Shown: positions 41,808 through 42,698 of the stretch, piece by piece | How positions within the stretch are numbered: the first letter of the stretch is position 1 | How the letters are laid out: every line of letters begins with the position of its first letter | NCBI GenBank assembly: GCA_904420445.1 | Contig: CAJFVJ010000001.1 | Location: 569,266-633,265, forward strand | Source of the DNA: Candidatus Adamsella avium | Lineage (GTDB): Bacteria; Cyanobacteriota; Vampirovibrionia; Gastranaerophilales; CAJFVJ01 | Direction: 5' to 3' | Length of the DNA: 64,000 nt | Notes under the pieces: model-generated | Database searches by the model: none | What the model was told of the DNA's origin: nothing | Seen by the model: only the letters and a program-made list of their open reading frames with translations | Program-made: the position numbers and the translations under genes

Positions 41808-42064
41808 AGAACCTCCAAAATTAGTTTTAAGTCTAAAAACATACCTTTTTTGTGTGTTTATAATAAAACAAGAGGTCAACAAAAATTGCTTTATTTATAA
41901 AAATAATTGCAAAATTTATTAATATTTGAGATGGAGAAGAGATAAAATATGTTGTTTTGTTGGTATGCGGGATATTATTTGAACAAAGATTTTAATAAAT
42001 ATCTTATTATTAATATAACAGATATTTTGATATACATCAAATGGAGGAGTTTTAAAATAAAAAT

Positions 42065-42091
42065 TAAAGACTTTTTTGTCGGTGCCGATAA
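42065..42091 (+). promoter_or_regulatory. Sigma-28 (FliA)-type promoter
   Basis: TAAAGACT (42065-42072), 11 bp, GCCGATAA (42084-42091). The -10 is a perfect match to the flagellar sigma-28 consensus (TAAAGTTT-N11-GCCGATAA), with the -35 at 6 of 8 and exact spacing. It is the only such motif I found in an intergenic region here. A start near 42097 is expected. Confidence 0.75.
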
Positions 42092-42096
42092 ATATA

Positions 42097-42175
42097 GTAT
42101 AAGACCGAAAGGTCATACCCCAACCTCCTCCCCAAGTCTAGTAGCCGTCCAAAAATGGATGGCTTTATTTTTTTG
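42097..42175 (+). ncRNA. Candidate sigma-28-dependent small RNA with anti-Shine-Dalgarno tract
   Basis: A predicted 75-80 nt RNA. The 5' stem is GTAT-aa-GACC GAAA GGTC-ATAC (42097-42118), capped by a GNRA loop. An unpaired C-rich stretch follows: CCCAACCTCCTCCCC (42119-42133), which contains ACCTCCT, the same sequence as the anti-Shine-Dalgarno end of 16S rRNA. The 3' end is the terminator at 42143-42174. Two hairpins around a CU-rich single strand is the layout of the cyanobacterial sRNA Yfr1, whose core is ACUCCUCACAC; the sequence is different, so homology is not claimed. The adjacent regulator has a GGAGGTT ribosome binding site, complementary to AACCTCC (42122-42128). Confidence 0.6.
42143..42174 (+). 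terminator. Intrinsic terminator of the candidate sRNA
   Basis: AGCCGTCC (42143-42150) pairs with GGATGGCT (42157-42164), followed by TTATTTTTTT. The T tail overlaps the last codons of the minus-strand kinase-like gene. Confidence 0.8.
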
Positions 42176-42698
42176 AGGAGATTCTTTCTTTGATTTGTTG
42201 TGCGACAATTTGTACGTTATTTTTGAGAGTATCGTAGTCCGAGTTGTTTTCGATGATGAAGTCCCATGAGGTTATATCATCGAGGTCAGTTTCAGTTAAG
42301 TCATTTTCTTTAACAATGTTGCCTCTTTTGGCTCTGTTTTCTCTCGAGGACTCAACTCTTATTGTTATAGCGTTGTATTGCTTTGCGAGGTTAAGTTCGT
42401 TTTTCAGTCTTAAATCAGAGATGATGACATTGAAATCAGAGTCGAGAATTTTTCTGAGCCAGTAATCTGAGCTTATGGCGCGGCCTTCATCTCCGAGTGC
42501 TATCAAATCAGGTCTGTATGCAGATTTGTTTTTTTCTATTTCTTCAACAGAAAGACCTGTTCTTTTTGAATATTCTTCTTTAATAGCGTCGCCTATGCCT
42601 ATTCTTTTGAAGTTTTTGAGATATTGCAGGAGAATTTCGACGACCGTATCTTTTCCGGCAAATTGTTTCCCTGAAACGGCGATTACATGTTTGTTCAT
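42165..42698 (-). CDS. P-loop nucleotide/deoxynucleotide kinase-like protein
   Basis: The 177-residue product has an N-terminal P-loop in VSGKQFAGKDTVVEIL (G-x-x-x-x-G-K-D-T), ALGDEGRAI and NVIISDLRLKNEL as the Walker B-like strand, then RAKRGNIVKENDLTETDLDDI. It resembles small dNMP kinase/phosphomevalonate-kinase-like P-loop enzymes, with unclear substrate. It ends inside the sRNA terminator. Confidence 0.75.
   Translation of the reverse strand: MNKHVIAVSGKQFAGKDTVVEILLQYLKNFKRIGIGDAIKEEYSKRTGLSVEEIEKNKSAYRPDLIALGDEGRAISSDYWLRKILDSDFNVIISDLRLKNELNLAKQYNAITIRVESSRENRAKRGNIVKENDLTETDLDDITSWDFIIENNSDYDTLKNNVQIVAQQIKERISSKK

Follow-up and report, generated by a model that had tools for sequence, protein, structure and literature searches.

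FlmR (CJnc170) of Campylobacter jejuni is a stand-alone, FliA-dependent non-coding RNA of 47 nt; a feedback on flgE and other class II (hook/basal-body) flagellar genes has been proposed for it (PMC11187230), and sigma-54-dependent targets have been predicted (PMC4626219). In Escherichia coli, flagellar synthesis is tuned by the sigma-28-controlled sRNAs UhpU, MotR, FliX and FlgO; these originate from UTRs, and two of them, MotR and FliX, base-pair within coding sequences (PMC10578931). In the short RNA Yfr1 of oxygenic cyanobacteria, two stem-loops flank a conserved, CU-rich tract that is unpaired, and a terminator lies at the 3' end (PMC2190773), while SmelA075/SmelA099 of Rhizobiales combine the anti-Shine-Dalgarno (anti-SD) motif CCUCCUCCC with variable stems (PMC3927594).

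The window (the whole 64-kb stretch of DNA that was analysed) contains a small-RNA gene at 42065-42174 on the + strand, consisting of a sigma-28 promoter, a 5' hairpin, an unpaired tract and an intrinsic terminator. By description, its closest likeness is FlmR, both being stand-alone FliA-type RNAs for which feedback on hook/basal-body genes is proposed. However, FlmR belongs to Campylobacter, whereas the present RNA is found in another phylum, in an order plus two families, and persists without flagella. It shares with the sigma-28-dependent flagellar regulatory sRNAs the promoter and a complementarity to flagellar mRNAs beyond chance; unlike those of E. coli, it comes with a promoter and a terminator of its own, and its matches are to initiation regions.

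The likeness to Yfr1 that was drawn in the original prediction extends to the anatomy, as two stem-loops surround an unpaired conserved tract followed by a 3' Rho-independent terminator, in a sister lineage. It does not extend to family membership: the ultraconserved 5'-ACUCCUCACAC-3' of Yfr1 has no occurrence in any of the RNA loci examined, where the tract reads CCUCCUCCCCAAGUCU, and the present RNA was not detected in oxygenic cyanobacteria. Yfr1 is a structural look-alike from a different family. The rhizobial CCUCCUCCC sRNAs are similar in anatomy as well, but in them three or four hairpins each carry the motif in the loop, an arrangement that was not found here, where a single open linker joins two hairpins behind a sigma-28 promoter. 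No published sRNA of this non-photosynthetic cyanobacterial lineage was found in the open-access literature searched, and the RNA represents a real, previously undescribed sRNA family of a functional kind that is already known.

Architecture of the small-RNA gene

The promoter has the form TAAAGACT-N11-GCCGATAA, and the unpaired tract, CCCAACCUCCUCCCCAAGUCUAGU, is set between the 5' hairpin and the intrinsic terminator (Table 1). We placed the start of the RNA at ~42097 from the position of the -10 element and its end at the terminator T-run. The predicted transcript folds into a hairpin, an open tract and a terminator hairpin with an energy of -20.8 kcal/mol (z = -4.9 against dinucleotide shuffles), and the tract is unpaired or almost so in the predicted folds of both the window RNA and distant homologues. 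The promoter with its 11-nt spacer, the hairpins, the open tract and the terminator had all been described in the original prediction and are present here. Its statement that this strand carries no convincing gene was borne out too: a + strand ORF over the RNA (41949-42176, 75 aa) is unlikely to be coding, since the tract lies in no consistent frame among 134 homologues and half of these lack an upstream ATG with read-through. No Rfam 15 family scored above its gathering threshold at the RNA, the best sub-threshold hits being far below gathering, and the only matches above threshold in the window were two tRNAs.

Table 1. Features of the small-RNA locus and its neighbours, in window positions.
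Feature	Position	Strand	Evidence
-35 element of sigma-28 promoter, TAAAGACT	42065..42072	+	sequence; pattern counts; AAAG conserved across the order; promoter score above controls
-10 element of sigma-28 promoter, GCCGATAA	42084..42091	+	sequence; pattern counts; promoter score; CG invariant in 34-locus alignment
Predicted small RNA	42097..42172	+	fold z -4.9; homologues in 189/193 order genomes
5' hairpin, GUAUAAGACC-GAAA-GGUCAUAC	42097..42118	+	hairpin in nearly all 134 homologues, stem sequence replaced
Open tract, CCCAACCTCCTCCCCAAGTCTAGT, proposed pairing region, anti-SD like	42119..42142	+	unpaired in folds; nearly invariant in the order
Intrinsic terminator, hairpin (42143-42164) then T-run	42143..42174	+	terminator prediction; compensatory stem changes
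Divergent neighbour, regulator with four GntR-type winged helices	40635..41807	-	Pfam PF00392, four stretches
Convergent neighbour, nucleoside/phosphomevalonate-kinase-like P-loop protein, outside the RNA	42165..42698	-	

The 64-kb window contains a single match to a relaxed promoter pattern, TAAAG-N14..16-GCCGATAA, and 100 shuffles contain none; in the 2.1-Mb genome the pattern occurs three times and a reversed control pattern not at all. Upstream of the RNA, the best sigma-28 score reached 13.2/16 for flagellate families and 11.9 for f2, the gut family, compared with ~9.8 in controls (shuffled sequence or permuted motif). Control of the small RNA by sigma-28 is very likely, and we infer that the RNA is expressed and depends on FliA.

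In the gut-family copies at L108, L114, L172 and L068, a palindrome, e.g. TCTCCTCC-N4-GGAGGAGATTTTT, recurs upstream of the -35 element, ~60-100 nt upstream of the tract, and may serve as an operator or terminate the gene before it. A degenerate form of this palindrome, ACATCAAATGGAGGAGTTTT, is present in the window at ~42035-42054. The four GntR-type winged-helix domains of the divergent regulator are consecutive, and the protein has no evident ligand domain.

Distribution and conservation

Using a 121-nt query, we found homologues in 60/60 sampled relatives, and a covariance model then identified the RNA, mostly as a single copy, in 189/193 sampled genomes of Ca. Gastranaerophilales, an order of non-photosynthetic relatives of cyanobacteria that is common in animal guts. 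The original prediction had proposed to look for the promoter-hairpin-tract-terminator arrangement in relatives, and the RNA is conserved there. Matches to named genomes were mostly MAGs labelled Candidatus Gastranaerophilales, the rest being largely from uncultured bacteria, along with a small number of bins that are probably mislabelled. A second model, R2, revealed the RNA in two further families of the class (f9, 8/10 genomes; f15, 3/4), whose homologues consist of the hairpin, CCCCAACCUCCUCCCCAAGUCA and a different terminator stem (GCTACCG/CGGTAGC).

Outside the order, six of the seven weak hits of model R1 were judged real by eye, while L204 proved false on inspection. In families f8 and f10-f14, most of the weak hits of R2 were likewise false, and this model gave nothing convincing either there or in ten genomes from other classes (oxygenic cyanobacteria). 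In the other classes of the phylum, the tract 16-mer was found at chance level only. The tract pattern had no match in viral contigs, and a viral origin was rejected on this ground. Tandem copies of the RNA gene were seen in L003, L004, L013, L018, G018:C16:5978-6757 and G300:C15 (two copies, and in G018 three). Where they were read, every copy had a promoter-like sequence and a terminator sequence to itself, while a clear 5' hairpin is wanting in some of the second copies.

Conservation is concentrated in the tract. The segment CUCCUCCCC-AAGUCU-R-GUAGC is nearly invariant across the order, CAACCUCCUYCCCAA is kept class-wide, and CAACCTCCTYCCCAA of the tract is kept in the two other families; genus g35 has extra A residues between the CCCC and AGUCU parts. 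Hairpin 1 displays the reverse pattern, its pairing being kept while its sequence is free, and a hairpin lies directly before the tract in nearly all 134 sequences (mean z -4.8, mononucleotide shuffles). The original prediction had called for covariation in both stems, and compensatory changes were indeed found in hairpin 1 and in the terminator stem. In the model alignment, 13/17 pairs showed two-sided compensatory change, as did all 10 aligned pairs of the hairpin 1 helix (42097..42118). The covariation score was 0.313, against 0.155 +/- 0.010 for shuffled and <=0.124 for slid alignments, a figure that leans towards the structure because the alignment was fitted to it. The model-based alignment was needed to recover the covariation of hairpin 1, which MAFFT/RNAalifold on the raw sequences missed because the stem sequences have been replaced wholesale.

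Complementarity to flagellar genes

In the window genome, the start regions of hook/basal-body genes (Pfam-supported genes, plus FliD) pair with the tract at -12.3 kcal/mol, compared with -8.4 kcal/mol for other genes (p 2e-4). This excess was larger than that of all 60 scrambled tracts and was reached in 0/20000 block permutations. Flagellar start regions likewise pair better with the tract in five further genera, one of them from f9. Under one common protocol, the excess was present in 6/6 RNA-bearing flagellate genera (p 0.0013 to 2.5e-7; z over the scrambled tract 2.0-3.8) and absent in all three flagellate relatives in which no RNA was detected (p 0.17-0.67), these controls having only 12-17 flagellar genes apiece. 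At least about half of the pairing excess reflects base composition, with G-richness behind part of it, and much of the excess is also seen with scrambled tracts. These target tests covered partial stretches of each genome with start codons called by a simple script, and counts over related genomes are non-independent.

In a motif-blind k-mer count of the regions upstream of flagellar genes, the top-ranking of 2088 6-mers was GGGGAG, which is complementary to CUCCCC (17/172 flagellar vs 12/947 other genes, p 7e-8). The shorter GGGAG was found upstream of 29/172 vs 30/947 genes in RNA-bearing genomes and 0/43 vs 3/379 in RNA-lacking ones. As a single k-mer, GGGGAG is rare in the window genome (1/30 flagellar genes), and the f9 genome tested has none. 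Taken together, hook/basal-body genes are the best-supported candidate targets, and the specific seed looks like CUCCCCAAG, directed at GGGGAG or UUGGG, rather than the complement of AGGAGG as such.

The original prediction was of a flagellar-phase RNA that represses mRNAs with AGGAGG sites. The conserved sigma-28 RNA, its open anti-SD tract and the flagellar link hold; the prediction is incomplete on the seed, and the RNA is not tied to flagella. Neither of its named targets stands out: by pairing energy, the divergent regulator (GGAGGTT, 41810-41816) comes no higher than the top 8% of the genes sampled, and it adjoins the RNA only within the genus, without a conserved neighbourhood; feoA (GAGGAGG before 11620, feoAB) reaches the top 4%, but its pairing with the 16S anti-SD is just as good. 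Top-energy target lists over whole genomes were uninformative on their own. No perfect antisense partner exists elsewhere in the genome, as the tract 16-mer pattern gives one hit per genome with both strands counted.

The window genome also encodes, beside a full-length FHIPEP (FlhA-like) protein at L291:16772-18868, a second one at L292:13538-15019 (-) that mainly matches the C-terminal half of the family.

Retention without flagella and proposed mode of action

Flagellin was found in 0/39 sampled genomes of the gut family f2, whereas almost all the remaining order genomes that were sampled have it. A FliA/WhiG-type sigma factor (TIGR02479) scores above cut-off across the order, with one clear exception, the RNA-bearing G297. 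As f2 has the RNA, the promoter and the sigma factor but no flagellin, all three have survived the loss of flagellin, and since the whole family keeps the RNA, it is not tied to flagella. This retention is the most surprising part of the RNA family. It amounts to a natural experiment, in which the same RNA occurs with and without flagella and can be set against flagellate relatives without it; being near-universal in the order, with a testable seed and targets, the RNA also makes it testable why a whole gut family retains a flagellar-type sigma factor after flagellin loss.

The fliA leader carries UUGGG, which is complementary to the tract and often extended to ACUUGGG(G), near the start codon in 22/32 gut-family genomes, compared with 2-3% of genes. 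The site is also found in f7, whereas neither f4 nor the genus of the window has it, and the RNA family as a whole therefore shares no single conserved target. Gut genera that lack it include most of g35, the genus with the altered tract. Given that the gut family has no flagellin genes, the conserved target there is only a candidate.

The best explanation, which we consider probable, is a sigma-28-driven, trans-acting feedback RNA that would repress hook/basal-body translation, together with an autoregulatory loop in the gut family. RNA polymerase carrying FliA (sigma-28) would transcribe the non-coding RNA, whose two hairpins would hold the C-rich tract CAACCUCCUCCCCAAGUCU open for pairing with translation-initiation regions. 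In flagellates, the main targets would be early and middle (hook/basal-body) genes with GGGGAG-like sites in their start regions; with FliA active late in assembly, the RNA would stop basal-body translation in a negative feedback. In the gut family, where RNA and sigma factor persist, the ACUUGGG(G)-type site of the fliA leader would turn this into an autoregulatory sigma-28 loop. We infer repression as the direction of control from the pairing at initiation regions, and the fliA loop from the leader site.

Alternatively, the RNA could act mainly on the sigma-28 circuit itself (fliA/flgM), the signal at flagellar ribosome-binding sites being a by-product of the G-rich initiation sites of the regulon. 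The retention of the RNA together with FliA in flagellum-less genomes speaks for this, as do the leader sites of the gut family and f7 and a candidate flgM-like gene of the window genome that carries UUUAGGGGA. We consider it unlikely, given the absence of the fliA site from the window genus and f4 and a flagellar complementarity that exceeds that of scrambled tracts and that relatives lacking the RNA do not show. A general mimic of the anti-SD would instead sequester many mRNAs with strong AGGAGG sites or compete with the 16S 3' end, flagellar genes being only part of its targets. ACCUCCU is indeed the core of the 16S anti-SD, CAACCUCCUYCCCAA is the most deeply conserved part of the RNA and is kept where the AGUCU part has changed (L249, L250), and genes with a strong SD such as feoA rank high. 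However, it is GGGGAG that is enriched upstream of flagellar genes and not AGGAGG (1/23 vs 14/405), and, genome-wide, pairing below -18 kcal/mol is only slightly more frequent than with scrambled tracts (4.2% vs 2.1% in G017, 5.8% vs 3.8% in the window genome), which makes such a mimic unlikely.

The invariant block CCUCCUCCCCAAGUCURGU could also be there for a protein to bind and not for base-pairing, with the RNA serving as a protein-binding sponge. Conservation extends past the anti-SD part to AGUCURGUAGCCG, further than a seed requires, but the complementarity of flagellar start regions co-occurs only where the RNA exists, and we regard a sponge as improbable. That the RNA sits in a short intergenic region might suggest that it acts in cis on a gene next to it, as a leader or attenuator, or that it is a terminator arisen by chance. 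This is highly improbable: the neighbouring genes vary between genera while the RNA persists, so that it is no cis element of one gene, and this lack of synteny refutes the idea; moreover, the downstream gene is convergent, the RNA has its own terminator, and the covariation is order-wide.

For the gut family, we tentatively propose a flagellar checkpoint RNA that has outlasted the flagellum: FliA, its promoter motif and the RNA would form a repurposed sigma-28/sRNA feedback circuit, in which the RNA may pair with the fliA leader and which may control non-flagellar genes; the odds are slightly against this proposal. In the flagellum-less G017 (loci L277 and L278), near-perfect sigma-28 promoters were observed before genes of unknown function. 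FliA and such promoters in f2 genomes point to a non-flagellar sigma-28 regulon.
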